Shown: positions 39,854 through 63,433 of the stretch, piece by piece | Numbering within the stretch: position 1 is the first letter of the stretch | Layout: the number at the start of each line of letters is the position of its first letter | Assembly (NCBI RefSeq): GCF_000424325.1 | Contig: NZ_AUJR01000010.1 | Location: forward strand, 1 to 64,000 | Direction of reading: 5' to 3' | DNA length: 64,000 nt | DNA from: [Clostridium] clostridioforme AGR2157 | GTDB lineage: Bacteria; Bacillota; Clostridia; Lachnospirales; Lachnospiraceae | The notes under the pieces: model-generated | Database searches by the model: none | Told to the model about the DNA's origin: nothing | What the model saw: only the letters and a program-made list of their open reading frames with translations | Program-made: the position numbers and the translations under genes

Positions 39854-39857
39854 TGAT

Positions 39858-42785: not shown

Positions 42786-42817
42786 TTGGCTCAGGATTAT
42801 GCTGCACAGTGTTTTTG

Positions 42818-42957: not shown

Positions 42958-42974
42958 GAAAAGGGGATATGATT

Positions 42975-46188: not shown

Positions 46189-47547
46189 ATGAATCAATTA
46201 ATTCAATCATTAGTAGAACGTTCCAGAAAGGCCCAGCAGGTGCTTTGCACGTATGACCAGGAAAAGACAGACGCGATCGTAAAAATGTTTGCAAAGGTTA
46301 TTTTTGATAATGCTGAGCCACTGGCAAAGCTGGCTGTGGAAGAAAGCCGGATGGGCGTTTATGAAGACAAGGTTACTAAGAATAAAGGAAAATCCAGGAT
46401 TATCTGGAATGCATTGAAAGGCAAAAAGTCCATCGGAATGATCGGAAGGGACGAAGAGGCAGGACTGATCGAGGTGGCAAAACCCATGGGTGTTATTGCG
46501 GCAGCTACACCTTGTACCAACCCCATTGTTACCCCAATGTGCAATGCAATGTATGCGGTAAAATGCCAGAACACAATTATTATCGCACCCCATCCCCGCA
46601 GCAAGAAATGTGCAATGGCAGTGGCTGAATTGTATTACAAGGAACTGGACCGCATGGGCGTGCCGAGAGATATTTTCCTGGTGATCGAGGAGCCGTCCAT
46701 TGAACTTACCAACGAGCTGATGGCAGCCTGCGATGTTGTGCTTGCAACCGGCGGCGCCGGCGTGGTGAAGTCGGCATATTCCAGCGGAAGACCGAGCTAC
46801 GGCGTAGGGCCCGGCAATGTACAGGGACTGATCGATGAGGGGATCGATTACAAGGCAGCTGCAGGCCGTATGATCGCCAGCCGTATATTCGATAACGGTA
46901 TTATCTGTTCCGGAACCCAGACCATCATCGCACCGGAAAAGGATTACGATGCTGTAATAAAAGAGTTCGTGGAGCAGGGTGCGTACTACATCGATGACAA
47001 GGCCGTTATTGACAAACTGGCTGATGTAGTATTCCCGGACGGCGTGATCAACAAGAAAGTGGTTGGACAGTCCGTAAAGACAATTGCAGAGCTGGCAGGA
47101 ATTACAGTTCCCGAAGGCACCAAGGTCATTGTTGTGAAACCTGAAAAGCATGGTGCAGGCGTTGTGTGGAGCAAGGAAAAAATGTGCCCGATGATGGCTG
47201 CATACAGCTACAAGACCTGGGAGGAGGCTGTTCAGATCGCTTATGACAACCTGGTATATGAGGGCGAAGGCCATTCCGCAGACATCCAGTCCGACAATGA
47301 AGCCCACATTGAATATGCAGGAGTGAAACTTCCGGTAAGCCGCGTGGTGGTAAATCAGACCTGTTCCAGCATGGCTGGAGGTGCATTTGCCAACTCCTTG
47401 AATCCTACAACCACACTTGGCTGCGGAAGCTGGGGCAACAACGCGATCAGCGAGAACCTGTTCTACACCCACCTGATGAATAAGAGCCGTATCGCATTTG
47501 TGAAAAAGGATTGGAAACAGCCGTCAGATGAGGAAATCTTCGCATAG
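46189..47547 (+). CDS. sucD: succinate-semialdehyde dehydrogenase, CoA-acylating
   Basis: Interconverts succinyl-CoA and succinate semialdehyde with NAD(P)H. The 452-residue product belongs to the CoA-acylating aldehyde dehydrogenase group, shorter than non-acylating enzymes. It has GVIAAATPCTNPIVTPMCNA, the glycine-rich ATGGAGVVKSAYSSGRPSYG, and the catalytic Cys240 in NGIICSGTQT. The identity as the succinate semialdehyde enzyme comes from the adjacent 4-hydroxybutyrate dehydrogenase. AGGGGGT lies before the ATG. It is the first gene of the 4-hydroxybutyrate operon. Confidence 0.9.
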   Translation: MNQLIQSLVERSRKAQQVLCTYDQEKTDAIVKMFAKVIFDNAEPLAKLAVEESRMGVYEDKVTKNKGKSRIIWNALKGKKSIGMIGRDEEAGLIEVAKPMGVIAAATPCTNPIVTPMCNAMYAVKCQNTIIIAPHPRSKKCAMAVAELYYKELDRMGVPRDIFLVIEEPSIELTNELMAACDVVLATGGAGVVKSAYSSGRPSYGVGPGNVQGLIDEGIDYKAAAGRMIASRIFDNGIICSGTQTIIAPEKDYDAVIKEFVEQGAYYIDDKAVIDKLADVVFPDGVINKKVVGQSVKTIAELAGITVPEGTKVIVVKPEKHGAGVVWSKEKMCPMMAAYSYKTWEEAVQIAYDNLVYEGEGHSADIQSDNEAHIEYAGVKLPVSRVVVNQTCSSMAGGAFANSLNPTTTLGCGSWGNNAISENLFYTHLMNKSRIAFVKKDWKQPSDEEIFA

Positions 47548-47558: not shown

Positions 47559-48674
47559 ATGAAAGAGATTATTTTGAAATCCCAGATATCATACTACGAT
47601 ACCTGCGCAGAGTTTGCCAGTGAGTTTAACCTTGGAAGCGATGACCTGATACTGACCAACGAATACATATATACTCCGTATTTTGGCAACCTGGGGCTGA
47701 ATGTTCACACCATCTTCCAGGAGGCATACGGGGCGGGAGAGCCCACTGATATTATGGTGGATGCGATACTGGACGAGGCTGCGAAGACCGACTGTAAGAG
47801 AATCATTGCCATCGGCGGCGGTACGGTCATCGATATTGCCAAGGTTCTGGCCGTGTCGGCAGGTGATCCTCTGGATTCCCTTTACGCTGCACCTGACAAG
47901 ATTGAGAAGAAACGGGAACTTATCATTCTTCCGACAACCTGTGGAACAGGAAGCGAAGTTACAAATATTTCCATTATCAACAGGACCAGGCTGGGCACGA
48001 AGGTGGGACTTGTATCGCCCCATATGTATGCGGATGAGGCGGTTCTGGTGCCGGAACTGCTGAACACGCTGCCCTTTGCCGTATTTGCCACCAGCTCCAT
48101 TGATGCTCTGGTACACGCCGTGGAATCCAGCCTGTCACCAAAGGCAACCCCGTACACAAAACTGTTTGGGTACAAGGCAATTGAGATGATCATCAAAGGG
48201 TATCAGAAGATTGCGGCCGAAGGCAAGGATGCAAGGCTGCCGTTGATGAAAGATTTCCTGATCGCCAGCAACTATGCGGGGATCGCATTCGGAACAGCCG
48301 GATGTGCCGCTGTCCACGCCACCAGCTATCCGCTGGGAGGCACTTACCATGTGGCCCATGGGGAGAGCAACTACGCCATGTTTACCGGTGTGCTGAAAAA
48401 CTATATGGAGATCAGACAGGACGGCGAGATTGCGGTGATGAACCAGTTCCTTTCCCAGCTGCTGGTTTGTTCCGAGAATTTGGTTTACGAAAAGCTGGAT
48501 GAATTGCTTGGGACGATTCTGCCGAAGAAAGCGCTCCACGAATATGGAGTAAAGCAGGAAGAACTGGCAGTGTTTACAAAGAGCGTTATGGAACAGCAGG
48601 GACGTCTTATGGCAAACAATTTTGTGCCGTTGGACGCAGACCGGGTGCTGAAGATTTATCAGGAACTATATTGA
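47559..48674 (+). CDS. 4hbD: 4-hydroxybutyrate dehydrogenase (iron-type alcohol dehydrogenase)
   Basis: Reduces succinate semialdehyde to 4-hydroxybutyrate with NADH, or the reverse. The 371-residue protein is of the iron-containing (group III) alcohol dehydrogenase family: IGGGTVIDIAKVLAVSAG and LPTTCGTGSEVTNISII bind the nucleotide, and SIDALVHAVESSLSPKATPY with TYHVAHGESNYAMF supplies the metal ligands. It starts 11 bases after sucD, and its TGA is followed closely by the dehydratase gene. Confidence 0.92.
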   Translation: MKEIILKSQISYYDTCAEFASEFNLGSDDLILTNEYIYTPYFGNLGLNVHTIFQEAYGAGEPTDIMVDAILDEAAKTDCKRIIAIGGGTVIDIAKVLAVSAGDPLDSLYAAPDKIEKKRELIILPTTCGTGSEVTNISIINRTRLGTKVGLVSPHMYADEAVLVPELLNTLPFAVFATSSIDALVHAVESSLSPKATPYTKLFGYKAIEMIIKGYQKIAAEGKDARLPLMKDFLIASNYAGIAFGTAGCAAVHATSYPLGGTYHVAHGESNYAMFTGVLKNYMEIRQDGEIAVMNQFLSQLLVCSENLVYEKLDELLGTILPKKALHEYGVKQEELAVFTKSVMEQQGRLMANNFVPLDADRVLKIYQELY

Positions 48675-48712
48675 TGGGGAATGATATAGACCATGAAAAG
48701 GAGAAGAAGATT

Positions 48713-50161
48713 ATGGCGTTAATGACTGGCGAAGAATATGTTGAGAGCATGCGGAAAATGAACCTCAATATCTACATGTTTGGGGAAAAGATTGAGAATC
48801 CCATCGACCATCCGATTTTAAGGCCATCCCTTAATTCGGTTAAGGCTACATATGATCTGGCTCAGCTGCCGGAATATGAGGACCTGATGACCGTAACGCT
48901 GGAGGACGGGCGCAAGATCAACCGGTTTACCAATATCCACAGAAGTACGGATGATTTGATCAAAAAGGTTAAAATGCAGAGACTCTGCGGCCAGAAGACG
49001 GCTGCTTGTTTCCAGCGGTGTGTGGGAATGGATGCATTTAACGCTGAATGGTCAACCACATATGAGATCGATGCAAAATACGGAACAAAGTATCATGAGA
49101 ATTTCAAAAAGTATCTCCGTATGGTTCAGGATCAGGACCTGACCGTGGATGGTGCAATGACTGACCCCAAGGGAGACCGCGGACTGGCGCCTCATGCACA
49201 GCCTGATCTGGATATGTATCTGCGGGTCGTGGAGCGCAGGGATGACGGAATCGTAGTCAGAGGAGCGAAAGCACATCAGACAGGAATCATCAACTCCCAG
49301 GAAGTGATCGTCATGCCAACCGTTGCCATGGGTCCTGATGATAAGGATTATGCGGTTTCATTTGCCGTTCCTACGAATGCAGAAGGAATCGTAATGATCA
49401 TAGGAAGGCAGTCCTGTGATACAAGGAAGATGGAAGGCTCCCAGATGGATGTGGGCAACAGCGAATTTGGCGGCGTCGAAGCGCTGGTTGTGTTTGATGA
49501 TGTATTTGTGCCCAATGACCGTATTTTCCTCAACGGTGAATTCGAGTTTGCAGGAATGCTGGTAGAGCGGTTTGCGGGATACCACAGACAGTCATACGGC
49601 GGATGTAAGGTTGGTGTCGGCGATGTCCTGATCGGAGCTGCCGCATTGGCTGCGGATTACAATGGCGTGCCCAAGGCTTCCCATATTAAGGATAAGCTGA
49701 TCGAGATGACTCATTTGAACGAGACATTGTATTGCTGCGGTATCGCATGTTCAGCGGAAGGAACACCTACCGATTCAGGAAATTATATCATAGACCTTCT
49801 GCTGGCCAATGTATGTAAGCAGAATGTGACCAGATATCCCTATGAGATCGCCCGTCTGGCAGAGGATATTGCCGGAGGACTGATGGTGACCGCGCCTTCT
49901 GAAAAGGATTTGAAGGATCCGGTTGTGGGAGGATATGTGGAGAAGTATCTTAAGGGCATCGAAGGCGTTTCCACTGAGAACCGCTTAAGGATACTCAGGT
50001 TGATCGAGAACCTGACACTGGGAACCGCTGCTGTGGGATACAGGACAGAATCCCTCCATGGTGCCGGATCACCTCAGGCACAGAGGATCATGATCTCACG
50101 CCAGGGCAATATTGGAAGAAAGAAAGAACTTGCCAAGGCGATCGCGAAGATCAAGGATTAA
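48713..50161 (+). CDS. abfD: 4-hydroxybutyryl-CoA dehydratase / vinylacetyl-CoA isomerase
   Basis: Radical dehydration of 4-hydroxybutyryl-CoA to crotonyl-CoA using FAD and a 4Fe-4S cluster. The ATG at 48713 (AAGGAGAAG upstream) gives 482 residues, the family length. Cluster ligands can be placed: Cys99 and Cys103 (AACFQRCVGMDAF), His291 and Cys298 (YHRQSYGGCKVG), matching the pattern C-x3-C and H-x6-C of the Clostridium aminobutyricum enzyme. The reaction creates the entry into butyrate or acetyl-CoA formation. The enzyme is oxygen-sensitive, in line with an anaerobe. Confidence 0.95.
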   Translation: MALMTGEEYVESMRKMNLNIYMFGEKIENPIDHPILRPSLNSVKATYDLAQLPEYEDLMTVTLEDGRKINRFTNIHRSTDDLIKKVKMQRLCGQKTAACFQRCVGMDAFNAEWSTTYEIDAKYGTKYHENFKKYLRMVQDQDLTVDGAMTDPKGDRGLAPHAQPDLDMYLRVVERRDDGIVVRGAKAHQTGIINSQEVIVMPTVAMGPDDKDYAVSFAVPTNAEGIVMIIGRQSCDTRKMEGSQMDVGNSEFGGVEALVVFDDVFVPNDRIFLNGEFEFAGMLVERFAGYHRQSYGGCKVGVGDVLIGAAALAADYNGVPKASHIKDKLIEMTHLNETLYCCGIACSAEGTPTDSGNYIIDLLLANVCKQNVTRYPYEIARLAEDIAGGLMVTAPSEKDLKDPVVGGYVEKYLKGIEGVSTENRLRILRLIENLTLGTAAVGYRTESLHGAGSPQAQRIMISRQGNIGRKKELAKAIAKIKD

Positions 50162-50238: not shown

Positions 50239-50283
50239 GTTGCCATATTATGACCCATGATACAAGAGGGAGGTAATTCAGGT

Positions 50284-51606
50284 ATGAATTGGAAAGAGAT
50301 TTATACATCGAAATTAAAATCAATGGAAGATGCTGTTAAGGTTGTAAAATCCGGTGACAAGGTGGTGATCGGCCATGCGGTTGGTGAACCCATTAAGCTG
50401 GTGGATACAATGGTGGAATATGCAGTCCAGGCGGATCTTCGGGATATAGAAATCTATCAGCAGGTGGATATGGGGCATTCCCTTTATGCCCAGCCCGGCA
50501 TGGAAAAACATTTCAGGGAAAACAGTTTATTTCTTGGGGCAAAGACCAGGGACTGCGTAAACAGTGGAAGAGGTGATTTTACTCCATGCTATTTTTACCA
50601 GACTCCGGATTTTTACCGCTATACAAAAAAGCCGGATGTGGTTCTGGTAACATTATCCATGCCGGATGAACACGGATACTGCAGCTTTGGTGTGTCCTGT
50701 GATTATACAAAGCCTGCGGCGGAAGTGGAAGGAGCCAAGGTAATTGCTGTGGTCAATCCCAATATGCCGAGAACCCTGGGAGACAGCTTTATCCATGTGT
50801 CCGACATTGACGTGATCGTGGAAGACGATACCCCCATCCCGGAACTGGGACTTCCGAAAATCGGTGATGTGGAGATGGCCATCGGTGAGCATATTGCCTC
50901 ATTGGTGAAAGATGGGGACTGCCTGCAGCTTGGAATCGGTGCGATCCCGGATGCCGTGCTTAAGTTCCTGGACAATAAAAAGGATTTGGGCATCCACTCG
51001 GAAATGATATCGGACGGCGTGATCGACCTGTATGAAAAAGGCGTGATCAACTGCAGCGCTAAGAATTTTAACCGGGGCAAGATAGTGGTGTCATTCCTTA
51101 TGGGCAGTCAGAGACTGTATGATTTTGTGGATGATAATCCAAGTATTTATATGGCGCCTGTGGATTATGTCAACCACCCGATCATCATTGGGCAGAATGA
51201 CAATCTGGTCTCCATCAATTCATCCGTTGAGGTGAACCTGATGGGTGAGGCGTGTTCAGAGGCAATGGGCTTAAAGCAGTTTTCAGGAATCGGAGGACAG
51301 GTGGACTTTATCCGGGGCGCCTCCTTCTCAAAGGGCGGCAGATCCATTCTGGCATTCCCATCCACTGCAAAGAAGGGAACAGTATCAAAAATTGTGCCGT
51401 ATCTGACCCAGGGAGGGACGGTGACCACATCCAGAAATGATGTTGACTACATTGTCACGGAACATGGAATTGCAAAGATGAAAGGGAATACCCTTAGAGA
51501 ACGGGCCCGCCAGCTGATCCGTATTGCGGCGCCGCAGTTCAGGGACGGCCTTGCAGAGGAGTTTGAGAGACGCTTTGCCGAAAAATATCAGGAGGTAGCT
51601 ATATGA
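50284..51606 (+). CDS. abfT: 4-hydroxybutyrate CoA-transferase, copy 1
   Basis: Transfers CoA from acetyl-CoA or butyryl-CoA to 4-hydroxybutyrate. The 440-residue class I CoA-transferase has SGDKVVIGHAVGEP at the start, LSMPDEHGYCSFGVSCDY, GDCLQLGIGAIPDAVLKFL and the catalytic Glu in LGIHSEMISDG. The C-terminal ILAFPSTAKKGTVSKIVPYL and DVDYIVTEHGIA are acetyl-CoA hydrolase/transferase family marks. The ATG at 50284 with GGAGG ten bases upstream is used. The end overlaps the second copy by ATGA. Confidence 0.9.
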   Translation: MNWKEIYTSKLKSMEDAVKVVKSGDKVVIGHAVGEPIKLVDTMVEYAVQADLRDIEIYQQVDMGHSLYAQPGMEKHFRENSLFLGAKTRDCVNSGRGDFTPCYFYQTPDFYRYTKKPDVVLVTLSMPDEHGYCSFGVSCDYTKPAAEVEGAKVIAVVNPNMPRTLGDSFIHVSDIDVIVEDDTPIPELGLPKIGDVEMAIGEHIASLVKDGDCLQLGIGAIPDAVLKFLDNKKDLGIHSEMISDGVIDLYEKGVINCSAKNFNRGKIVVSFLMGSQRLYDFVDDNPSIYMAPVDYVNHPIIIGQNDNLVSINSSVEVNLMGEACSEAMGLKQFSGIGGQVDFIRGASFSKGGRSILAFPSTAKKGTVSKIVPYLTQGGTVTTSRNDVDYIVTEHGIAKMKGNTLRERARQLIRIAAPQFRDGLAEEFERRFAEKYQEVAI

Positions 51607-52910
51607 GCTGGAGAGAAATCTATGCTTCAAAATTGAAAACCCCGGAAGAAGCGGTAAAGATCATTCATTCAGGGGATACGGTTCTGATCGCCCACGCAGC
51701 GGCGGAACCGGATGTACTTGTGAGTGCGATGGCGGATCATGTGGTGGAACAGGATTTAAAGGATATCCATCTTGTTCAGCAGCATGATATGGGAACCTGT
51801 AAATTTTTTGAACCGGGAATGGAGAAGCACTTCAGGTATTCTTCCCTTTTTATCGGAGCACGCAGCAGAAATTATGTTGCAGAGGGTAAGGGCGATTACG
51901 TGCCGGTATTTTTTAACCGGATCCCCAATTATGTGACAGATATTGAGCCTGCGGATGTATTTCTGGTCACACTGTCCATGCCGGATGAGCATGGCTACTG
52001 CAGCTATGGACTTTCCTGCGATTTTGCCAAAGAGGCTGCAGAACGGCCGGGAACCAAGGTGATCGGAGCAGTCAATCCCAACATGCCCAGGGTTATGGGA
52101 GATAACTTTATCCATGTGAGCTGTCTGGAGTCCATTGTGGAGAGCAATGAGCCGATCCATGAGCATGCCCGTCCGGTGATCGGAGAGGTGGAGGAAAAGA
52201 TCGGAGCCAACATAGCCGGTCTTGTACATGACGGAGACTGCCTGCAGCTTGGAATCGGTGCGATCCCGGATGCGGTGCTAAAGTTCCTTGGAGACAAGAA
52301 GGATCTGGGAATCCATTCGGAGATGATTTCAGATGGACTGATGGATCTATATGAGATGGGAGCCATTACCGGAAAAAGGAAAAACATAGATAAGGGCAGA
52401 ATGGTCATTACCTTTATGATGGGCACCAGAAAACTGTATGATTTTGTGAATGACAATCCGGCGATCTGTATGAAACCGGTGAGTTATGTAAATGATCCTT
52501 TTGTCATAAGCCAAAATGATAATGTGGTATCCATCAACTCTGCCCTGCAGATCGATTTGATGGGCCAGGTCTGTGCAGAAGCAATTGGACTTAAGCAGTA
52601 TTCCGCAGTGGGAGGCCAGATGGACTTTGTAAGGGGGGCGTCTGCATCGAAGGGTGGAAGATCGATCATTGCCTTTGGCGCTACCACAAAGGGGGGGACC
52701 ATATCTAAAATTGTTCCTTTCCTGACCCAGGGGGCGGCAGTGACCACCAGCAGGAATGATGTGGATTACATCGTAACAGAATATGGAATTGCCCATTTAA
52801 AGGGAAAATCTTTAAGAGAGAGGGCAAAGGCATTGATCGGTATCGCGGCTCCGGCATTTCGTGATGACCTGGCAAAAGAATTTGAGAAACGTTTTAGGGA
52901 AACAATATAG
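51603..52910 (+). CDS. 4-hydroxybutyrate CoA-transferase, copy 2
   Basis: A 435-residue paralogue of the preceding gene along its entire length (shared LSMPDEHGYC, DGDCLQLGIGAIPDAVLKFL, LGIHSEMISDG). It starts within the stop of copy 1 (ATGA), so both are made in similar amounts. The family works as homodimers or tetramers; tandem copies could form a heteromer or use different acids. It lacks the last few residues of copy 1. Specificity cannot be read from the sequence. Confidence 0.9.
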   Translation: MSWREIYASKLKTPEEAVKIIHSGDTVLIAHAAAEPDVLVSAMADHVVEQDLKDIHLVQQHDMGTCKFFEPGMEKHFRYSSLFIGARSRNYVAEGKGDYVPVFFNRIPNYVTDIEPADVFLVTLSMPDEHGYCSYGLSCDFAKEAAERPGTKVIGAVNPNMPRVMGDNFIHVSCLESIVESNEPIHEHARPVIGEVEEKIGANIAGLVHDGDCLQLGIGAIPDAVLKFLGDKKDLGIHSEMISDGLMDLYEMGAITGKRKNIDKGRMVITFMMGTRKLYDFVNDNPAICMKPVSYVNDPFVISQNDNVVSINSALQIDLMGQVCAEAIGLKQYSAVGGQMDFVRGASASKGGRSIIAFGATTKGGTISKIVPFLTQGAAVTTSRNDVDYIVTEYGIAHLKGKSLRERAKALIGIAAPAFRDDLAKEFEKRFRETI

Positions 52911-53341: not shown

Positions 53342-53629
53342 TTAAATCTGATGACTTAGTATTTTATGTGCCATGTCAAGTAATTCAGGATTGATTTCCT
53401 CTACCAGGATAACATCCTGTATGGAAGGAAATGCGGAGCGGACTTCTGCGGTTATCAATTCTTCATTGGTGCTGTGAGCGGCAGGACATCCGGAACATTT
53501 TCCGGTCAGCCTTACCCTCAGAATGTTATTTTCCAGGCTTTGAATTACCACATTGCCATTGTGCTCGGCCAGGGACGGCCGGACTTTTGCATCAAGAACA
53601 GCTTCTATTTGTTTGATCGTGGCTTCCAT
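53342..53629 (-). CDS. NifU-like C-terminal domain protein
   Basis: A 95-residue Fe-S scaffold-type protein: IKQIEAVLDAKVRPSLAEHN, then LRVRLTGKCSGCPAAHSTNE with the CxxC (KCSGCP) of the NifU C-terminal domain. It probably holds or transfers an Fe-S cluster. AAGGAGGG lies before the ATG at 53629. It is the only minus-strand gene after 30 kb in the window; the nearby Fe-S enzyme is 4-hydroxybutyryl-CoA dehydratase, a possible but unproven client. Confidence 0.82.
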   Translation of the reverse strand: MEATIKQIEAVLDAKVRPSLAEHNGNVVIQSLENNILRVRLTGKCSGCPAAHSTNEELITAEVRSAFPSIQDVILVEEINPELLDMAHKILSHQI

Positions 53630-53742
53630 GATACACCCTCCTTTGCATTGTAGTTTAACAGCGTGAAAACAGTTTGTCAATGAAAGCTATGATATGAAAA
53701 TTTGATGGATACAGATAAAAAAGATTGGAAAGAAGTGGTGGT

Positions 53743-54685: not shown

Positions 54686-55444
54686 ATGAAAATTGGAATT
54701 AAATTCTGTGGGGGCTGCAATCCGGTATATGACAGGGGCAGACGGGTCAGCAGATTCAGGGAAGCCCACCCCGAGCATGAATATGTGACGTCTGATACAA
54801 ATGCAGTATGTGATATCTGGATGGTTGTCTGTGGATGCAGCCGCAGGTGTGCGGATACAAATGGATTAAAGGCAGGAAGGGGCATTGTCCTGCTGTGGGA
54901 TGAGGACAGCTTTAAACGGCTGGAAGAAGAAGCCGCAGAGGCGGCCCGGGAAGGGGAAGCCGGCGGCAGTGACAGGAGAGTGCTTCATCTGCATGAGAAA
55001 GCAAGGCGGTCCAGGGTGATGACCAGTGAAGATGTCCGAAGCTTTGCGGCCCTCACGGGAGATAAAAGCCGCCTGCATCTGGATTCCCACACCGCGTCCA
55101 GGGCCGGCTTTGAACGCCCGTTGGTCCATGGCATGTTTCTGGATTCCCTGGTATCGGCTGTCATGGGAACAGACCTGCCGGGAAGCGGTACTCTATATAC
55201 GGAACATACCGCCAGATTCATACGGCCGGTTTACATAGGAGATACCATAGAGATCACAGTGGAATTTGTCTCCTTCGAGGAGCGGGAAGACTGCTATATA
55301 GGCATGTTCCGGGGAACCTGCAGGAACCAGAATGGCGAGAGGGTGCTGTCGGCAATGTGCAGCCAGATAATGAAGAAAAGCTTGTTTAAAGTAGTAGCAG
55401 AGGAAAGTGAGCAGACGGATTATGACGAATTTAGAGAAATATGA
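54686..55444 (+). CDS. MaoC-like dehydratase with N-terminal Cys-rich domain
   Basis: The 252-residue protein has two parts. Residues 1-75 contain KFCGGCNPVYDRGRR and CGCSRRCADTNG, a CGGC-type Cys-rich module that may bind metal. Residues about 105-240 are a hot-dog MaoC domain: DVRSFAALTGDKSRLHLD with the hydratase dyad D and H, FERPLVHGMFLDSLVSAVMG and RPVYIGDTIEITVEF. MaoC domains hydrate trans-2-enoyl-CoA or enoyl-ACP to (R)-3-hydroxyacyl thioesters. It is the first gene of the carrier-protein/LuxC/LuxE run and overlaps the carrier gene by 23 bp. Confidence 0.82.
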   Translation: MKIGIKFCGGCNPVYDRGRRVSRFREAHPEHEYVTSDTNAVCDIWMVVCGCSRRCADTNGLKAGRGIVLLWDEDSFKRLEEEAAEAAREGEAGGSDRRVLHLHEKARRSRVMTSEDVRSFAALTGDKSRLHLDSHTASRAGFERPLVHGMFLDSLVSAVMGTDLPGSGTLYTEHTARFIRPVYIGDTIEITVEFVSFEEREDCYIGMFRGTCRNQNGERVLSAMCSQIMKKSLFKVVAEESEQTDYDEFREI

Positions 55445-55658
55445 CCAGTTGTTTATGAGAAATCTAAAGGTGAAGAGGGAGGAGCTGGAGCGGCTTAAAT
55501 ACAGGGGGATACGTGCATGGGACTCCCTGGGGCATATGGATCTGATTGCGGATCTGGAAGAAGCGTTTGATATCCACATGGGTACGATGGATGTCATGGA
55601 TTTTTCTTCTTATGAAAAGGGAAAAGAGATCCTAAAAAAATATGGAGTGGATATCTGA
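55422..55658 (+). CDS. acyl carrier protein
   Basis: A 78-residue acidic, helical protein with the phosphopantetheine site at Ser35 in RAWDSLGHMDLIADLEEAF, the D-S-L pattern of acyl/peptidyl carriers. It is not the housekeeping AcpP, whose context (fatty acid genes) and sequence differ. The ATG at 55422 lies inside the MaoC gene. In this setting it should hold the acyl chain for the adjoining hydratase, synthetase, reductase and ligase. No phosphopantetheinyl transferase is present in the window. Confidence 0.85.
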   Translation: MTNLEKYDQLFMRNLKVKREELERLKYRGIRAWDSLGHMDLIADLEEAFDIHMGTMDVMDFSSYEKGKEILKKYGVDI

Positions 55659-55679
55659 AGCTCCGAAGGCAGGCATTTT

Positions 55680-56351
55680 GTGAAAGAAAATGAAACAGTG
55701 ACACGGATTACCGTATGCCGTGACAGCCTGACCCAGAGTAACTGCTATCTGATCGGGGAGAAGGGCGGGGCGATGGTAATCGATCCCAATCATTTTGAAC
55801 TGGTAGAAAATGCATTAAGGGAACAAGCCCTGACACCTGAACTGGTCATGCTGTCACATGAGCACTGCGATCATATACGGGGGCTGGAGGAGCTGAGAAA
55901 CCATTGGAAGGTAAAAGTTCTATGCAGCAGGCGGTGCAGTCAGGGAATCGGAGATATCACTCAGAATATGTCCCGGATGATGGAAGTTTATCTGCTTTAC
56001 CGTACGCAGCAGAGCGTTGTATACCCACCTTTTATCTGCAGGCCTGCGGAACTGGTATATGATGCCCCTTATGATTTTACGTGGCATGGACACAGGTTTT
56101 TGTGTACGCCGCTTCCCGGACACTCGGGAGGAAGCAGCTGCATTTTTATGGATGATACCTGCCTGTTTACCGGAGATTATCTGATACCGGGCGAGCAGGT
56201 GGTGACAAGGCTTCCGGGAGGCAGTGAACAGGAATACGAGGAGACGGCAAAGCCGTGGCTGTCTGCATTGAAGGCAGGACTGACCATATATCCCGGACAC
56301 AATGACAGCTATGTTCTGACCAGGGAGGTGAAGGAACGGTATGGATTATGA
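55680..56351 (+). CDS. metallo-beta-lactamase-fold hydrolase (thioesterase-like)
   Basis: A 223-residue MBL protein with the zinc signature SHEHCDH (H-x-H-x-D-H variant at about residue 60), GHSGGS, FTGDYLIPG and YPGHND supplying the remaining ligands. The size and motifs resemble glyoxalase II/thioester hydrolases. Between an acyl carrier protein and LuxE it may release acyl chains or edit the carrier. GTG at 55680 is the start; the end overlaps the LuxE-like gene by 11 bp. Confidence 0.82.
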   Translation: MKENETVTRITVCRDSLTQSNCYLIGEKGGAMVIDPNHFELVENALREQALTPELVMLSHEHCDHIRGLEELRNHWKVKVLCSRRCSQGIGDITQNMSRMMEVYLLYRTQQSVVYPPFICRPAELVYDAPYDFTWHGHRFLCTPLPGHSGGSSCIFMDDTCLFTGDYLIPGEQVVTRLPGGSEQEYEETAKPWLSALKAGLTIYPGHNDSYVLTREVKERYGL

Positions 56352-57414
56352 ATTACTTCTGGCAATAAGACCCTATTCTCTGGACAGATCCGGGAAGAAG
56401 AAAATGTTCGGGGAATGGCTGACGGAGCTGACAGAGTATCACAGGCACAACTGTATCCCATATGAACGGCTGCTAAACGCCATGGATGTACAGCCGGACA
56501 GAAAGATGGAGGAAGAGGAAATCCCCATGCTTCCCATCAATCTGTTTAAAAACATGGAGCTTAAAAGCATTGCTCCGGAGCGGATCTTCAAAATCGTGAC
56601 ATCCTCAGGCACAGAGGGCCAGGAGGTATCCAAAATTTATCTGGATACGGATACTGCCAGGTATCAGCAGATTGCGCTGGCGAATATAGGCGAGGATTTC
56701 TGGGGAGGTCAGCGGATTCCGTTTCTGGTGATTGACAGCCCGGATGTATTAAAGAAAAGAGAGATGTTTTCTGCCAGGGGTGCCGGGATTTTGGGATTTT
56801 CCATTTTTTCATCCAGAATATGTTATGCACTGGACCGTGAGATGCGGCTGGACATAGATGGGGTGGAGGCATTTCTGGAACAGTATAAGGGAAAGAAGAT
56901 TCTTGTTTTTGGTTTTACTTACATGATATGGAAGTATTTGTATGAGGTTCTGGCCTCCCAGGGGAAAAAACTGGATCTTACTAATGGGATTCTTGTTCAT
57001 GGAGGAGGATGGAAAAAACTGGAGAACAAGTCTGTCTCCTCAGAGGAGTTTAAAGACAGGATCAGTCAGGTAACAGGTATCAGCCGGATCCATAATTATT
57101 ATGGAATGGCTGAACAGACCGGATGTATCTATATGGAATGCTCCTGCGGCAATCTTCATGCCAGTGTCTACTCGGACATCATAACAAGAAGGCCGGATGA
57201 TTTCAGTCCCTGCAGCTATGGAGAAAAAGGTATCATCCAGGTTCTGTCCCCATTGGCACGTTCATATCCCGGACATTCAATTTTGACTGAGGATGAGGGA
57301 ATCCTGCTGGGGGAAGATGATTGTCCATGCGGGCGCCTGGGAAAATATTTTAGGGTGACAGGGAGAATCCGTCAGGCACAGGTCAGGGGGTGCAGTGATA
57401 CATATGAAGGATGA
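56341..57414 (+). CDS. LuxE-like acyl-protein synthetase
   Basis: A 357-residue adenylate-forming protein of the LuxE family: FKIVTSSGTEGQEVSKIYLD is the AMP-binding P-loop (S-S-G-T-x-G), with FGFTYMIWKYLYEVLA, ILVHGGGWKKLE, NYYGMAEQTGCIYMEC and a Cys-rich CPCGRLGKYFRVTGR. LuxE activates fatty acids and passes them to the LuxC reductase, and such a partner gene follows immediately. Overlaps on both sides (11 bp upstream, 11 bp downstream) suggest a stoichiometric complex. Confidence 0.85.
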   Translation: MDYELLLAIRPYSLDRSGKKKMFGEWLTELTEYHRHNCIPYERLLNAMDVQPDRKMEEEEIPMLPINLFKNMELKSIAPERIFKIVTSSGTEGQEVSKIYLDTDTARYQQIALANIGEDFWGGQRIPFLVIDSPDVLKKREMFSARGAGILGFSIFSSRICYALDREMRLDIDGVEAFLEQYKGKKILVFGFTYMIWKYLYEVLASQGKKLDLTNGILVHGGGWKKLENKSVSSEEFKDRISQVTGISRIHNYYGMAEQTGCIYMECSCGNLHASVYSDIITRRPDDFSPCSYGEKGIIQVLSPLARSYPGHSILTEDEGILLGEDDCPCGRLGKYFRVTGRIRQAQVRGCSDTYEG

Positions 57415-58609
57415 AGTGATCGTTCTGGCCGGTACAGGGCAGCCCGAGGCAAAACCATGGGAGCCCTTTGCCGAACCGGTCATGGAGTTTCTTGGGCAGC
57501 TGTCCTGTGAGATACGCCGCAGCAGGCAGCAGTATGAGGAGATGGCGGCTTTTGGATTCTGGTGCCGCAGATACCATATGGAGGAGTTCAGGAAACGGTA
57601 TAAGGACGGCCGGGTCCGTTTGGGCCGGGGAGTTATTTTACATATCCCTGCCTCCAATGTCCCGCTGCTGTTTGCCTATAGTATGGTAATGGGGCTGCTG
57701 GCAGGCAACAGCTGTGCGGTCCGCATTTCTTCCAGAAGTCATGAGCAGGACCGGATTATGTGCATCATCATGGAAGGACTGTTAAAACATCCTGATCATA
57801 CGGAATTGAGAAAACGGATATCTGTTTTTACCTGTGCTCGCGATTCCTCTGCGATCGCCGGGCTGCTTGCGCAGTGCGCGGGCTGTGTTGTATGGGGAGG
57901 AGACCGGACTATAAAGGAGATCAGGGCCCTGCCCATGAGACCTGACGCGGTTCAGATGGGGTTCCCCGACCGGTATTCCATCTGTATACTGGATACGGCT
58001 CATGTGTGCAGTCTGACGGATGATGAGCTGAAACACCTGGTCCACCGATTTTACAATGACACATATGTACTGGACCAGAATGCATGTTCAAGTCCGGTGG
58101 CTGTCATATGGAATCAGAAGTCCGGCTCAGAGACAGCGGAGCACATACGGACACGATGGTGGAACATGGTAGCGGAGGAGGCCGGGGATTATCACATGAC
58201 GGCCCATAAGGCAACGGTCAAATATGAGCAATTGTGCAGATACGCTATGGAATCCCAGGAGACAGTGAAAGTCACGCGCTATGGCAACCGGCTTTATACC
58301 ATCAGGCTGTCATGTGTTCCTGAGCATCCGGATCAGCTTAAGGGAAGCTTTGGACTGTTTTTTGAGTACACAGGGGATTGGAGGGAGGCGGTGGGACGCA
58401 TGGCCACAAGCCGGCTTCAGACCATTACATACCATGGAATAAAAGCACAGGAAATAGAGGAGCATGTGGTAGCGAATCACCTTTTTGGAGTTCACCGCAT
58501 CGTCCCGGTGGGGCAGGCTGCGGATATGGATCTCATATGGGATGGGCAGGATTTTATCACTGTGCTGTCCAGGCAGATTGGCAGGGGGGTGCAAGATGGG
58601 TCTATTTGA
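57404..58609 (+). CDS. LuxC-like acyl reductase (fatty-acyl-CoA/acyl-protein reductase)
   Basis: A 401-residue LuxC-family, aldehyde-dehydrogenase-related enzyme. It has LGRGVILHIPASNVPLLFAY (N-terminal nucleotide region), GGDRTIKEIRAL, FPDRYSICILD and the catalytic Cys228 in YVLDQNACSSPVAV, with LQTITYHG near the end. LuxC reduces acyl thioesters to aldehydes with NADPH through an acyl-cysteine intermediate. The ATG at 57404 is used (AGGGGGTG 11 bases upstream); GTG at 57395 is an alternative. It is coupled to the LuxE-like gene (11-bp overlap) and the acyl ligase (14-bp overlap). Confidence 0.85.
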   Translation: MKDEVIVLAGTGQPEAKPWEPFAEPVMEFLGQLSCEIRRSRQQYEEMAAFGFWCRRYHMEEFRKRYKDGRVRLGRGVILHIPASNVPLLFAYSMVMGLLAGNSCAVRISSRSHEQDRIMCIIMEGLLKHPDHTELRKRISVFTCARDSSAIAGLLAQCAGCVVWGGDRTIKEIRALPMRPDAVQMGFPDRYSICILDTAHVCSLTDDELKHLVHRFYNDTYVLDQNACSSPVAVIWNQKSGSETAEHIRTRWWNMVAEEAGDYHMTAHKATVKYEQLCRYAMESQETVKVTRYGNRLYTIRLSCVPEHPDQLKGSFGLFFEYTGDWREAVGRMATSRLQTITYHGIKAQEIEEHVVANHLFGVHRIVPVGQAADMDLIWDGQDFITVLSRQIGRGVQDGSI

Positions 58610-60065
58610 TAATGAACTACGGTATGGGGAACGGCCATTGGCTATTGATGATCAGGGCAGGACCGCGTCCAGTCAGGAGCTGGATGCTTTTTCAGGTGAA
58701 TTATATGAGAAAACAGGGGGTAAAAAGCTGATCTTTATTCTCTGTGAGAACACGCTGGAGTCGTTGTTTGGTTATCTGGGCAGCTTAAAGACGGGCATTG
58801 TCCCGCTGATGCTGGAGAGCCATATTCATCCGGAACTGCTTGAAGGGCTTATAAAGGAGTACCACCCGTCTTTCTTATATGTACCTGATACATGGGCGGA
58901 CAGGATAAAAGACTGTGAGGTTGTATGGAAGTACGGCGGATACTGCCTTTGCAGCAGGAATGAAAAGCAGCCTCCATCCCTTTACAGTGAATTGGCATTA
59001 CTCCTGACAACGTCAGGAAGTACGGGCAGCCCCAAGCTGGTCAGGCAGAGTAAGGCGAATATTGTATCCAATGCTGGATCGATTGCCTGCTATCTGGAGA
59101 TTGACCGGGATGAACGGCCGGTAACAACGTTACCCATGAATTATACATACGGTCTGTCAATTATCAACAGTCATGTATTAAAGGGTGCCACGCTTCTGCT
59201 TACATCCTATGGAGTAATAGAACGTCCCTTTTGGGATTTTGCAAAGGAGATGAGAGCCACCTCCATTGCCGGAGTCCCCTATACATATCAGATCTTAAAA
59301 CGGATCGGCATGATGGATATGGAATTGCCGGATCTTAAAACCATGACACAGGCGGGCGGCAAACTGCCCTTAAATTTGCACAGAGAATTTGCATTATATG
59401 CAGAACAGACAGGAAAGAAATTTGTTGTCATGTATGGACAGACGGAAGCCACGGCCCGTATGGGATATCTTCCGGCGTCCAGGTCATTGGAAAAATGCGG
59501 AAGTATGGGGATTGCCATACCGGGCGGAAGTTTTTGGCTGGAGGATGACCAGGGAAATAGGATCATGGAGCCGGATACCCAGGGAGAACTGGTTTACCAG
59601 GGAGAAAATGTTGCTTTGGGTTATGCCTGCGGCAGGGATGACCTTATAAAGGAGGACGAATGGAAGGGAGTCCTGCATACCGGTGACATGGCCAGGAGGG
59701 ACAGTGATGGGTATTACTATATTACGGGAAGAAAAAAGCGATTTATTAAAATCTTCGGCAACCGAATCAATCTGGATGAAGTGGAGCGGCTTTTAAAGGA
59801 ACGGTATGAGGGAACTGATTTTGCATGTGTGGGGATAGATGATTGTCTTAGGATCTTTACGGATTTCAGACAGCCGGATGCAGGGGAACAGGTTTTAGAT
59901 TACCTGTATCAGGTAACCGGAATTGGCGCCAGGGCAGTGCGGGTACGTTGCCTGGATCAGATACCCAAGAATGAATCAGGAAAAACCCTTTATAAAGAAT
60001 TGGAAGCCAAAGCAGAGGACGGGTCATACACAGGTGAAAAGGGCAGTTTATGTGGGGAATTTTGA
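58596..60065 (+). CDS. AMP-forming acyl ligase (acyl-CoA synthetase-like)
   Basis: A 489-residue ANL-superfamily enzyme: LLTTSGSTGSPKLVRQSKAN (P-loop), PMNYTYGLSIINSHVLKGA, VMYGQTEATARMGYLPASRS, HTGDMARRDSDGYYYITGRK and the C-terminal catalytic Lys in IPKNESGKTLYKEL. It would adenylate a carboxylic acid and load it on CoA or on the carrier protein. The ATG at 58596 with AGGGGGG upstream is favoured over the ORF start 37 codons earlier. Its 3' end overlaps the CoaD-like gene by 32 bp. Confidence 0.85.
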   Translation: MGLFDNELRYGERPLAIDDQGRTASSQELDAFSGELYEKTGGKKLIFILCENTLESLFGYLGSLKTGIVPLMLESHIHPELLEGLIKEYHPSFLYVPDTWADRIKDCEVVWKYGGYCLCSRNEKQPPSLYSELALLLTTSGSTGSPKLVRQSKANIVSNAGSIACYLEIDRDERPVTTLPMNYTYGLSIINSHVLKGATLLLTSYGVIERPFWDFAKEMRATSIAGVPYTYQILKRIGMMDMELPDLKTMTQAGGKLPLNLHREFALYAEQTGKKFVVMYGQTEATARMGYLPASRSLEKCGSMGIAIPGGSFWLEDDQGNRIMEPDTQGELVYQGENVALGYACGRDDLIKEDEWKGVLHTGDMARRDSDGYYYITGRKKRFIKIFGNRINLDEVERLLKERYEGTDFACVGIDDCLRIFTDFRQPDAGEQVLDYLYQVTGIGARAVRVRCLDQIPKNESGKTLYKELEAKAEDGSYTGEKGSLCGEF

Positions 60066-60507
60066 CCCTGTAACATTAGGTCATGTGGATATCATACAGC
60101 GGTCTGTGCGCATAGCAGATCAGTTGGTGATAGGGGTCAAAAGCCAAAGGCCGGGCGGATTCATGTTCAGCCTGGAACAAAGAATGGGATATCTAAGGAT
60201 GGCGCTGCATAATTTACAGCATGTGATAATACGGGAATGCGGACAGGATATTGTGAATTTTGCCAGAACCAACGGCGCCGAAGTTATTATCCGGGGAGTG
60301 CGCAATATTGCAGATTTTGAACATGAGCTGCACCAGTCCCAGATAAACCAGAAAATGAATCCGGGAATCAACACTGTTTTATTTATGGCTGACACCCAAT
60401 ATTCATTTTTAAGCTCAGGGATTGTCAGGGAGCTTCTTAGCTTTGATAAGGATATTTCCTGTTTTGTTCCTAAGAGGGCCGCGGATTTGGTGAAAGCAGA
60501 TAAATAA
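60034..60507 (+). CDS. CoaD-like phosphopantetheine adenylyltransferase paralogue
   Basis: A 157-residue nucleotidyltransferase of the HxGH family: RAVYVGNFDPVTLGHVDIIQ (nucleotide site, G-N-F-D-P-V-T-x-G-H), EVIIRGVRNIADFEHE, and YSFLSSGIVRELLSFD. CoaD makes dephospho-CoA from phosphopantetheine. The start is GTG at 60034; it begins inside the ligase gene. A second copy beyond the housekeeping enzyme is expected but cannot be seen here, so a specialised role for the carrier system is inference. Confidence 0.8.
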   Translation: MKRAVYVGNFDPVTLGHVDIIQRSVRIADQLVIGVKSQRPGGFMFSLEQRMGYLRMALHNLQHVIIRECGQDIVNFARTNGAEVIIRGVRNIADFEHELHQSQINQKMNPGINTVLFMADTQYSFLSSGIVRELLSFDKDISCFVPKRAADLVKADK

Positions 60508-60543: not shown

Positions 60544-61725
60544 ATGGCTAAAAAGATTGTACTGGCAGGAGCCTGCCGTACCGCAATCGGAACCATGGGA
60601 GGAGCGCTCAGCACAACTTCATCCCAGGAATTGGGGGCTGCTGTCATAAGAGACGCCCTGAGAAGGACCGGCATAAAACCGGAACAGGTTGACTTTGTAT
60701 ACATGGGATGTGTCCTACAGGCCGGTCTGGGCCAGAATGTAGCGAGGCAGGCTTCCTTAAAAGCCGGACTTCCGGTTGAAACACCGGCTGTTACCATCAA
60801 TGTGGTATGCGGTTCCGGCCTGGACAGTGTGAACCTGGCGGCGCAGATGATCCAATGTGGGGATGCGGACATTGTGGTGGCCGGAGGAACAGAGAATATG
60901 TCCATGGCACCGTATCTGTTAAAAAATGCTAGATATGGTTACCGGATGAATAATGGGCAGCTCATTGACAGCATGGTGAATGACGCCCTGTGGGATGCCT
61001 TTTATGATTACCATATGGGTATCACTGCTGAGAATGTGGCGGAAAGATGGGGGCTGACCAGGGAAGAGCTGGACCGGTTTGCGGCTGACAGCCAGCAAAA
61101 AGCCTGCGCAGCCATGGAATCAGGACGCTTTAAGAATGAGATCGTCCCGGTGGAGATTAAGAAAAAGAAGGAAACCATTGTCTTTGATGTGGATGAGGGT
61201 CCCCGTCCCGGAACAACGGCTGAAGGAATTGCAAGACTTCGCCCTGCTTTTAAGCCGGACGGTATGGTAACAGCGGCCAATGCTTCCAGTATTAATGACG
61301 GTGCGGCAGCGGTTATTGTGATGAGTGAGGAAAAGGCGAAGGAGCTGGGGGTAAAGCCTATGGCAGTCTGGGTGGCAGGAGCCCTGGCCGGTGTCGCACC
61401 GGAGATCATGGGGGTTGGCCCTGTGGCCGCAACTAAAAAGGTGATGGAAAAAACAGGTCTGTCTATGGATTCCTTTGATCTAATTGAAGCAAATGAAGCC
61501 TTTGCAGCCCAGTCCCTGGCCGTGGCCCGTGAGCTTAGCTTTGACATGACAAAGGTAAATGTAAATGGAGGCGCCATTGCACTGGGGCATCCGGTGGGAG
61601 CTTCCGGATGCCGTATCCTTGTAACCCTGCTTCATGAGATGGAAAAGAGAGGGGTAAAGAGGGGGCTAGCAACCTTATGTATTGGCGGCGGCATGGGCTG
61701 CGCAACGGTTGTGGAGAGGGAATAA
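60544..61725 (+). CDS. thlA: acetyl-CoA C-acetyltransferase (thiolase)
   Basis: Condenses two acetyl-CoA to acetoacetyl-CoA, or cleaves it. The 393-residue protein has the acyl-Cys in [19 protein letters not shown], the [15 protein letters not shown] block, [16 protein letters not shown] and the second Cys in [18 protein letters not shown] precedes the ATG. It leads the butyrate run thlA-crt-hbd-bcd and starts 36 bp after the CoaD-like gene on the same strand, so read-through is possible. Confidence 0.93.
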
Positions 61726-61767: not shown

Positions 61768-62544
61768 ATGGAGTTTGTTATATATGAAGCGGAAGGGCAG
61801 ATCGGAATTATTACAATTAACCGTCCCAAGGCTTTAAATGCACTCAACAGCCAGGTGTTAAGAGAACTTGATAAAGTCCTCGGCCAGGTGGACACGGATA
61901 CGGTCCGGGTATTGATCCTTACAGGTGCAGGGGATAGGGCCTTTGTAGCAGGGGCTGATATTTCTGAGATGAGCACCTTTACAAAGGAGGAAGGAGAAGC
62001 CTTTGGAAGAGAGGGTAATAATATATTCAGACGCCTTGAGACATTTCCCATTCCGGTTATAGCAGCGGTGAATGGTTTTGCTTTGGGGGGAGGCTGTGAA
62101 CTGGCTCTAAGCTGTGATATACGTATCTGCTCGGAACAGGCTGTTTTTGGACAGCCGGAAGCCGGCCTTGGCATCACTCCCGGATTTGGCGGTACCCAGA
62201 GGCTGGCAAGGACTGTCGGCACGGGAATGGCAAAGCAAATGATCTATATGGCCAAAAATATAAAGGCGGAGGAAGCATACAGGATTGGACTGGTGAATGC
62301 CGTATATCCCCAGGAGGAACTGATGGGAGCTGCCAGAAAAATGGCGGAGGGCATTGCCGGAAATGCTCCCATTGCGGTGAGAAACTGTAAAAAGGCAATC
62401 AACGAAGGCTTGCAGGTGGATATGGATCAAGCCCTTGTGATCGAGGAGCATCTGTTTGGAACCTGTTTTGAAACCCATGACCAGAAGGAGGGAATGGGGG
62501 CATTTCTTGAGAAAAGGAAAGAGAAGCATTTCATTAACAGATGA
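61768..62544 (+). CDS. crt: 3-hydroxybutyryl-CoA dehydratase (crotonase)
   Basis: Reversibly dehydrates 3-hydroxybutyryl-CoA to crotonyl-CoA. The 258-residue enoyl-CoA hydratase-family protein has the oxyanion-hole region RAFVAGADISEMS, VNGFALGGGCELALSCDIRI with Glu, and the second Glu in GQPEAGLGITPGFGGTQRLA. It lies 42 bp after thlA. It joins the crotonyl-CoA made from 4-hydroxybutyrate to the acetyl-CoA branch. Confidence 0.92.
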   Translation: MEFVIYEAEGQIGIITINRPKALNALNSQVLRELDKVLGQVDTDTVRVLILTGAGDRAFVAGADISEMSTFTKEEGEAFGREGNNIFRRLETFPIPVIAAVNGFALGGGCELALSCDIRICSEQAVFGQPEAGLGITPGFGGTQRLARTVGTGMAKQMIYMAKNIKAEEAYRIGLVNAVYPQEELMGAARKMAEGIAGNAPIAVRNCKKAINEGLQVDMDQALVIEEHLFGTCFETHDQKEGMGAFLEKRKEKHFINR

Positions 62545-62593: not shown

Positions 62594-63433
62594 ATGAAAG
62601 TTGGAATTATTGGCGCAGGAACCATGGGTTCAGGGATTGCCCAGGCATTTGCCCAGGCTGCAGGATATGAGATATGCCTGTGCGACATCAATGAAGAGTT
62701 CGCTGCAAACGGGAAGAAAAGGATCGCAAAAGGGTTTGAAAAAAGGATTGCCAAGGGTAAGATGACGCAGGAATCCGCAGATGAGATTCTGTCTCATATT
62801 ACCACAGGCGTCAAGGATATCTGCACGGACTGTGATCTGGTTGTGGAGGCAGCTGTGGAAAACATGGAGATAAAGAAGCAGACCTTTCGGGAACTTCAGG
62901 ATATTTGTAAAAAAGAATGCCTCTTTGCAACGAATACATCTTCGCTGTCAATCACGGAAATCGGAGCAGGACTTGTCCGTCCGGTAGCGGGAATGCATTT
63001 CTTTAATCCTGCACCGGTCATGAAGCTGGTGGAAGTGATCGCCGGACTGAATACACCGGCAGAGATGATCGCTACGATTAAAAAGATTGCGGAAGATATA
63101 GGTAAGGTTCCGGTACAGGTGGAGGAAGCTGCGGGATTTGTTGTAAACAGGATCCTGATCCCCATGGTAAACGAAGGGATCGGAATATATGCAGAGGGAG
63201 TTGCCAGCGCAGAGGGGATTGACAATGCAATGAAGCTGGGAGCAAATCATCCCATGGGGCCTCTGGCTTTAGGTGATCTGATCGGACTGGATGTGGTTCT
63301 GGCCATAATGGAAGTGCTTCAGGCGGAGACAGGAGATCCGAAATACCGTCCCCATCCTCTGTTAAGGAAGATGGTGCGCGGCGGCAAGCTGGGACAGAAG
63401 ACGGGCATTGGTTTTTATGATTACAGGAAATAA
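62594..63433 (+). CDS. hbd: 3-hydroxybutyryl-CoA dehydrogenase
   Basis: NAD(P)-dependent oxidoreductase for acetoacetyl-CoA/3-hydroxybutyryl-CoA. The 279-residue protein starts [20 protein letters not shown] (dinucleotide fold), and contains [34 protein letters not shown] with the catalytic His, and [25 protein letters not shown] precedes the ATG. It is the third gene of the butyrate run. Confidence 0.95.

Follow-up and report, generated by a model that had tools for sequence, protein, structure and literature searches.

In the 64,000-nucleotide stretch of [Clostridium] clostridioforme AGR2157 analysed here (hereafter the window), seven genes at 54686-60507 combine LuxE- and LuxC-type enzymes with a dedicated acyl carrier protein (ACP), an AMP-forming ligase and a hydratase domain. 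Our comparisons demonstrate that this operon is real and conserved, and that it recurs in other genomes beside abfD, the gene for 4-hydroxybutyryl-CoA dehydratase. An initial annotation had seen here a LuxC-LuxE-carrier gene set resembling an acid-to-aldehyde system within a butyrate region, a proposal that has partly held up: the set is found elsewhere, without luciferase, and adjoins 4-hydroxybutyrate genes. Acid-to-aldehyde chemistry is likely, the cassette probably turning a short acid into an aldehyde. The more specific reading that we favour, with a confidence somewhat short of even, is a split, carrier-based carboxylic acid reductase (CAR) that is coupled to the 4-hydroxybutyrate-to-crotonyl-CoA branch and acts on a C4 acyl group (3-hydroxybutyryl or crotonyl). 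Inspection of the open reading frames (ORFs) of the window places the genes as follows.

54686..55444, + strand: CGGC cysteine-rich domain (residues about 1-90) fused to a PhaJ-like MaoC hydratase domain (about 101-245); Pfam and structure comparison
55422..55658, + strand, ATG start: dedicated ACP, Ser35 in WDSLGH; Pfam matches below the curated cut-off
55680..56351, + strand: metallo-beta-lactamase-fold (MBL) hydrolase, possible editing thioesterase, a variable member; Pfam PF00753
56341..57414, + strand: LuxE-type acyl-protein synthetase, Cys351; Pfam PF04443, 3e-45, above its cut-off
57404..58609, + strand, ATG start: LuxC-type acyl reductase, catalytic Cys228; Pfam PF05893, 5e-30, above its cut-off
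58596..60065, + strand, ATG start: AMP-forming acid ligase, probable carrier loader; Pfam PF00501, 1e-36
60034..60507, + strand, GTG start: second CoaD (phosphopantetheine adenylyltransferase); cytidylyltransferase-like, NCBIfam TIGR01510 above cut-off

All seven lie on the + strand and overlap or nearly touch, as had been claimed. Counted from the likeliest ATG or GTG starts, the overlaps are 23, 11, 11, 14 and 32 bp, in agreement with the 11-32 bp given earlier for most junctions; the exception is the ACP/MBL junction, a gap of 21 bp.

The association with abfD is visible within the family and across a wider set of loci. Among 397 genomes of Lachnospiraceae (the LuxE and abfD samples carry identical handles and are taken as one sample), LuxE was found in 30 at E<=1e-50 and in 55 at E<=0.001, and AbfD in 32 at E<=1e-100; the two occur together in 14 genomes versus 2.4 expected (Fisher p 1.5e-9), the cut-offs of 1e-50 and 1e-100 having been set after the LuxE list was known. 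The genes are neighbours in ten of these 14 (G000, G391, G353, G339, G445, G087, G037, G379, G070 and G064), the call for G064 resting on an abfD block that runs into a 70-residue LuxE start at the contig end (L196); another LuxE begins a different contig of that genome. The remaining four, G299, G326, G369 and G449, have LuxE on a separate contig from abfD; in G326 and G449 the contig that bears abfD is short. With a linked LuxE in 10 of the 32 abfD genomes of the family, the cassette is not required for the 4-hydroxybutyrate pathway, and in our abfD tree 13 of the 42 loci show no LuxE match although each flank exceeds 6.5 kb.

Beyond the family, a scan of species genomes with a LuxE alignment (A1) confirmed at least 573 relatives among 595 candidates, of which the best 80 by similarity were kept. 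The pooled set held 125 LuxE matches and, after removal of 8 duplicates, 117 distinct loci, 23 of them with abfD within 11 kb of LuxE, a proportion that is no frequency because the relatives kept were picked by similarity. Short contigs were scored as misses in the locus tallies, and L058, L101 and L126, which are abfD-type by other evidence, are counted among the 94 non-linked loci. The linked loci come mainly from Lachnospiraceae and Oscillospiraceae, with one from Treponema, and the organisms include Lacrimispora amygdalina, L. xylanisolvens, Lachnotalea glycerini, [Clostridium] aerotolerans, Flavonifractor species and Treponema vincentii. L101, on a contig labelled as a metagenome-assembled genome (MAG) of Paenibacillaceae, carries a cassette very near that of Lacrimispora in the LuxE tree and is probably a binning error. 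A scan of genome contigs with LuxC alone found no relatives; a tblastn search of plasmids with LuxC returned 14 records, every one below 60% identity.

Within 7 kb of LuxE, the 23 abfD-linked loci carry a NifU-type gene and an ACP without exception, LuxC and the AMP-ligase in 22 each, the CGGC domain in 21, abfT in 19, MBL in 11 and a crotonase in 9. Recurrence of ACP, LuxE, LuxC and AMP-ligase at 22-23 of the 23 loci sets the gene order beyond chance, and these four genes are the best conserved core. The MBL gene is variable and CoaD was found solely in this genome by tblastn over the collected loci, so neither belongs to the core; the CoaD paralogue is 39% identical to the other CoaD copy of the genome, is absent from the close relative L056, and has been dropped as a member of the system. 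Of the seven families that the initial annotation expected to co-occur in order, the four core genes stand, the first gene stands as a fusion in 17 loci, and MBL and CoaD do not; that the genes might never be found together elsewhere is contradicted by the 23 abfD-linked loci with an ACP. The arrangement itself is flexible. Cassette and abfD are co-directional in the window, and abfD is divergent in L068, L069, L118 and L161; the ligase precedes LuxE in L076, L077, L079 and L081, and LuxE and LuxC share a single open frame in L078 and L088. In Flavonifractor sp. An10 a tautomerase-family gene (L106:12258-12701) separates luxC from the AMP-ligase; by tblastn, it is absent from the other collected loci.

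The residues needed for acyl transfer are in place. LuxE residues 16-352 align with the LuxE of the photobacterial structure 7xc6 (1.2e-12), with Cys351 falling on residue 364 of chain E, and the position is cysteine in 37 of 38 aligned rows, the remaining row having a gap. Three further cysteines of LuxE are similarly constant (Cys267 in 38, Cys328 in 37 and Cys330 in 35 of the 38 rows), which suggests a metal site with no counterpart in the alignment to the LuxE of 7xc6. In LuxC, Cys228 (Cys231 in the numbering of the GTG-start ORF) is cysteine in all 33 LuxC rows. The alignment to the reductase of 7xc6 (chain A) is restricted to residues 76-202 (3.9e-5); the NCBIfam LuxC model matches window residues 76-243 to model positions 140-298, which would put Cys231 (ORF numbering) at position 286 if the alignment is ungapped at its end, and this position we take to be the photobacterial active cysteine. 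Ser35 of the ACP, counted from the ATG and set in W-D-S-L-G-H, is serine in 98 of 102 aligned carriers, so that both residues singled out in the initial annotation, Ser35 and Cys228, are confirmed. The genome itself holds two matches to the phosphopantetheinyl transferase (PPTase) family and one to the LuxC family. The reported absence of luxAB extends from the window to the whole genome, in which the luciferase family PF00296 (Bac_luciferase) has no match, the identical search being positive in 10 of 14 control genomes; the LuxD family PF02273 has no match in the genome, but none in the control genomes either. The MBL protein has no match in the PDB at 1e-10.

The first gene of the cassette, described earlier as a MaoC-like dehydratase, does contain a hydratase domain but is actually a fusion of an N-terminal CGGC cysteine-rich domain with a PhaJ-type MaoC domain. 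The CGGC part, in which Cys8, Cys11, Cys51 and Cys55 are invariant across 15 rows, has no Pfam match, and the best fold match of its model (mean pLDDT 83.4) in the PDB has an E-value of 0.025, with none at 0.001. The MaoC domain has as its nearest solved relative 1iq6, the (R)-specific enoyl-CoA hydratase of Aeromonas caviae, by sequence (4.5e-20) as well as by predicted fold (TM 0.87 on target), and the Asp and His of the hydratase motif, presumably catalytic, are aligned between the two. Fused genes of this kind occur in 17 of the 23 abfD-linked loci: twelve are CGGC-MaoC, and five, from two Flavonifractor species, a Flavonifractor MAG, an Oscillospiraceae MAG and Treponema vincentii, are CGGC-FabA. 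The suggestion that a dehydratase modifies the carrier-bound acid has thus gained support from the PhaJ likeness and from the replacement of the domain by a FabA type in Flavonifractor and Treponema, and an interconversion of (R)-3-hydroxyacyl and enoyl groups is implied for most, though not all, abfD-linked loci. The CGGC domain alone adjoins abfD in five loci without a LuxE match (L180, L182, L186, L187 and L199); together with the fusion, this means that the abfD set and the Lux-ACP cassette have a domain in common. A further apparent fusion, in L184:7217-8800 (G148), joins a CGGC domain and an AbfT-like CoA-transferase domain in one open frame. Among loci without a LuxE match, L182, L185, L186 and L190 have split transketolase genes (N and C halves) beside abfD/abfT, and L186 seemingly also has inositol-type catabolic genes, as judged by eye.

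The cassette of the window is embedded in the following genes, among which is also a small upstream protein without a Pfam match, in the company of the AbfT-like, NifU-like and LysR genes.

46189..47547, + strand: SucD-like CoA-acylating succinate-semialdehyde dehydrogenase; nearest solved structure 8cei, 1.6e-163
47559..48674, + strand: iron-containing alcohol dehydrogenase, probable 4-hydroxybutyrate dehydrogenase; Pfam Fe-ADH, function inferred from position
48671..50161, likely start 48710, + strand: AbfD, 4-hydroxybutyryl-CoA dehydratase/vinylacetyl-CoA isomerase; nearest solved structure 1u8v, 2.8e-239
50257..51606, + strand: AbfT-like 4-hydroxybutyrate CoA-transferase, copy 1; NCBIfam TIGR03948 below cut-off, 63% to copy 2
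51603..52910, + strand: AbfT-like 4-hydroxybutyrate CoA-transferase, copy 2; solved relatives 3eh7 and 3gk7 are 4-hydroxybutyrate CoA-transferases
53342..53680, - strand: short NifU-type protein; Pfam PF01106
53743..54642, + strand: LysR-type regulator; Pfam, start picked by comparison with relatives
60544..61725, + strand: thiolase (butyrate pathway); family match
61768..62544, + strand: short-chain enoyl-CoA hydratase (crotonase); family match
62594..63433, + strand: 3-hydroxybutyryl-CoA dehydrogenase; family match

The gene set for converting 4-hydroxybutyrate to butyrate is therefore present in the window, and with AbfD, AbfT and SucD upstream and thiolase, crotonase and 3-hydroxybutyryl-CoA dehydrogenase downstream, the butyrate region of the initial annotation is more precisely one for turning 4-hydroxybutyrate into butyrate. 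Further upstream, at 30641-44069, are components of sarcosine/glycine reductase, SelA, tRNA-Sec, a selenium-type LysR regulator and a YedE-type selenium transporter.

From this material we infer the substrate, direction and use of the cassette. The AMP-ligase would spend ATP and load a short acid on the phosphopantetheine at Ser35 of the ACP, as its family and linkage suggest, and the PhaJ-like or, elsewhere, FabA-like domain would then convert enoyl thioesters to (R)-3-hydroxyacyl thioesters and back. Crotonyl or (R)-3-hydroxybutyryl is the likeliest acyl group; we assign it to C4 because of the similarity to PhaJ and because AbfD produces crotonyl-CoA. Where present, the MBL protein, or an alpha/beta hydrolase in two loci, may edit or release the acyl group, a step that would not be universal. 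In photobacterial enzymes the acyl group is relayed from a cysteine of LuxE to one of LuxC; here LuxE would accept it on Cys351 and pass it to Cys228 of LuxC, which would reduce it with NADPH to the aldehyde. At abfD loci the cassette would draw off the C4 intermediate of the pathway and turn it into a C4 aldehyde, and in glycan clusters it would supply routes that involve FabG- and transketolase-type enzymes. An obligatory LuxD-like release step has been weakened as a component of the scheme, thioesterase candidates (MBL, type II thioesterase or alpha/beta hydrolase) occurring in 13 of the 23 abfD-linked loci; the count is 32 of 94 in the other loci.

Several observations weigh against this coupled C4 reductase. 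The fusion is missing in 6 of the 23 abfD-linked loci: L107 has MaoC with no CGGC match, L103 has CGGC and no MaoC, L076, L077 and L079 have a CGGC gene alone, and L081 has neither CGGC nor MaoC; a raw count that finds a dehydratase within 7 kb at 20 of 23 loci is too high, the FabA-type matches of L076, L077 and L081 being remote or on the opposite strand. The MBL gene is missing in the closest relatives of the window (L056, L100, L102-L105 and L107). Treponema vincentii (L120) has ACP-MBL-LuxE and then no LuxC or AMP-ligase, and G299 (L192) has abfD, CGGC-FabA and ACP without adjoining Lux genes, from which it follows that the ACP-dehydratase unit may operate without reduction. The whole L120 block, from strain OMZ 806, consists of abfD, transporter-like genes, NifU, CGGC-FabA, abfT, ACP, MBL and LuxE, followed by opposite-strand genes. 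Neither an aldehyde-using enzyme nor a release enzyme is common to all the loci, and two acid-activating enzymes are a high ATP cost beside a fermentation pathway. Finally, as the trees below do not reject one origin, block inheritance or transfer could explain part of the linkage.

The last point bears directly on the strongest of the alternatives, in which a cassette for surface glycans or lipids produces a building block derived from a hydroxyacyl group and merely travels with the 4-hydroxybutyrate genes, the neighbourhood reflecting block transfer or shared regulation. Its appeal comes from the 94 of 117 LuxE loci with no abfD within 11 kb, near which, contig ends being uncorrected, we find ACP in 68, AMP-ligase in 82, a FabG-like short-chain dehydrogenase/reductase (SDR) in 55, transketolase N in 35, DegT in 26, NeuB in 20, a type II thioesterase in 19 and MBL in 13; by this gene content, many of them are glycan-type clusters. 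L116 and L137, both labelled Gastranaerophilales, have the cassette with SDR genes and FabZ; L137 adds a ketoacyl-ACP synthase (KAS) III-like gene and, near the cassette, a weakly PPTase-like gene, and L116 an acetolactate-synthase-like enzyme dependent on thiamine diphosphate (ThDP) and NeuB, and these glycan-type clusters seem to approach a nearly complete acyl-carrier pathway. Cassettes published from flagellin islands (PMC7874193, PMC4875605) point the same way.

The trees, too, leave room for this alternative. The LuxE tree comprises the 109 of 117 loci that passed length and score filters, and 26 of its rows are abfD-type (including L058, L101 and L126); 22 of these and the short contig L127 form one group (SH-aLRT 99), and L076, L077, L079 and L081 are placed apart from it. 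A single clade of all 26 abfD-type rows is not rejected (p-AU 0.339, 109 rows). Independent, repeated recruitment beside abfD has been withdrawn, the rejection in the first tree (p-AU 0.00026) having had L058 (G064) labelled as non-abfD. In the abfD tree of 42 loci, Lux linkage takes three changes to explain across the 36 loci whose state is known. These topologies suggest that the abfD-LuxE association arose once or a few times, with block transfer possible. Against a travelling glycan cassette stands the complete absence of FabG-like SDR, transketolase, NeuB, DegT and type II thioesterase within 7 kb in the 23 abfD-linked loci, the window included; in addition, 17 of them have the CGGC-dehydratase fusion as a tie between cassette and abfD set, and the linkage persists despite varying gene order and dehydratase type. 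On balance, we consider this explanation unlikely, if well above negligible.

A second alternative, which we regard as improbable, has the cassette convert succinate to succinic semialdehyde, replacing SucD and feeding the 4-hydroxybutyrate dehydrogenase. Consistent with it, five genomes with abfD and LuxE (G016, G353, G339, G087 and G064) have no SucD match at 1e-30. SucD is nevertheless present in the same region in the window and in G391, and among the searched abfD genomes without linked LuxE it exceeds 50% identity in G148 only, so there is no pattern of replacement; moreover, succinate would give the hydratase and dehydratase domains no role. As a main explanation it was rejected, since the presence of SucD does not alternate with that of the Lux cassette.

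We give very little credence to a catabolic direction, in which LuxC would oxidise an aldehyde, for example one coming from a C4 diol or C4 aldehyde source, to an acyl thioester handed to the ACP. Of the 23 abfD-linked loci, 17 do have an iron alcohol dehydrogenase match no more than 11 kb from LuxE, and in L126 one comes directly after the AMP-ligase; but this direction requires the AMP-forming ligase and LuxE to operate in reverse, many of the dehydrogenases are probably the 4-hydroxybutyrate dehydrogenase that adjoins abfD, and none is found in L068, L069, L077, L078, L081 and L118, some of which are near contig ends. Just as improbable is a photobacterial-like enzyme making long-chain fatty aldehydes for membrane lipids: the LuxC and LuxE families are named after long-chain substrates, but scores against the NCBIfam long-chain equivalogs are far under the cut-offs (63.4 against 550 bits for LuxE, 32.3 against 750 for LuxC), and the PhaJ-type domain and the C4 gene setting speak against it.

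Light-producing bacteria are the main setting in which LuxC and LuxE are known; relatives of the two recur here, with a private carrier, in a butyrate-forming route of gut-type bacteria, and the cassette is also found in glycan-type clusters whose contigs carry the labels Clostridia, Melainabacteria, Synergistota, Spirochaetota and Enterobacteriaceae. Should the coupled C4 reductase yield a reactive C4 aldehyde or a derivative of one, the cassette would represent an overlooked branch of the metabolism of 4-aminobutyrate (GABA) and 4-hydroxybutyrate. The CGGC domain, fused to two dehydratase types and once to a CoA-transferase frame, offers a concrete handle for testing. Taken further, anaerobes of the gut and elsewhere that ferment 4-hydroxybutyrate, GABA or succinate may run a dedicated carrier-protein side branch to a C4 aldehyde, for instance (R)-3-hydroxybutanal or crotonaldehyde, that serves as signal, effector or building block. 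In surface-glycan clusters of several phyla the same module may provide aldehydes for ThDP-dependent carboligases, which could explain small unassigned glycan moieties, among them the 102-Da unit found in Aeromonas piscicola AH-3; as a joint proposal this is speculative, and we think it rather doubtful that all its parts hold.

Among known systems, the closest in gene content are the flagellin glycosylation islands (FGI). Group II islands of Aeromonas contain an ACP, a 3-oxoacyl-ACP reductase, an AMP-dependent synthetase, LuxE and LuxC, for which a liposugar has been suggested (PMC7874193), and enterobacterial flagellin islands list the same gene families (PMC4875605); activity of the island Lux and ACP genes is not demonstrated in the accessible parts of either paper. 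The first also describes an unassigned 102-Da glycan moiety on the flagellin of A. piscicola AH-3, which bears the island; this moiety could be a product of the cassette. Compared by description, the islands share with the window the combination of ACP, AMP-ligase, LuxE and LuxC and differ in the 3-oxoacyl-ACP reductase and the glycan setting; the CGGC-dehydratase fusion, NifU, AbfD and AbfT are not mentioned in the accessible text. A locus of Kosakonia has a LuxE 55% identical to that of the window, with an ACP, FabG-like SDRs, transketolase halves and an AMP-ligase nearby. The word undescribed, used of the system in the initial annotation, is accordingly too strong for the gene set, which the island papers (PMC7874193, PMC4875605) already note, and it may stand for the link to 4-hydroxybutyrate metabolism, for which no paper was found in the literature searched, which leaves out most subscription papers and preprints.

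The photobacterial LuxC-LuxE(-LuxD) system, as in 7xc6, has the same LuxE and LuxC families and a common TSSGT motif at distant sequence similarity; unlike it, the window is without luciferase and has a dedicated ACP, a second, AMP-forming ligase and a hydratase domain. A CAR holds adenylation, carrier and reductase domains in a single chain that adenylates an acid, loads it on the phosphopantetheine carrier and reduces it to the aldehyde; the window is alike in working scheme but distributes it over separate proteins, with a LuxC-type reductase that has an active cysteine and an extra LuxE relay. The fermentation set for 4-hydroxybutyrate and 4-aminobutyrate (abfD, abfT, sucD and 4hbD) is present in the window, and the Lux-ACP cassette is an addition to it at part of the abfD loci. 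Overall, this is a real, conserved and partly described cassette in what appears to be a new metabolic setting, with a plausible, putative function.

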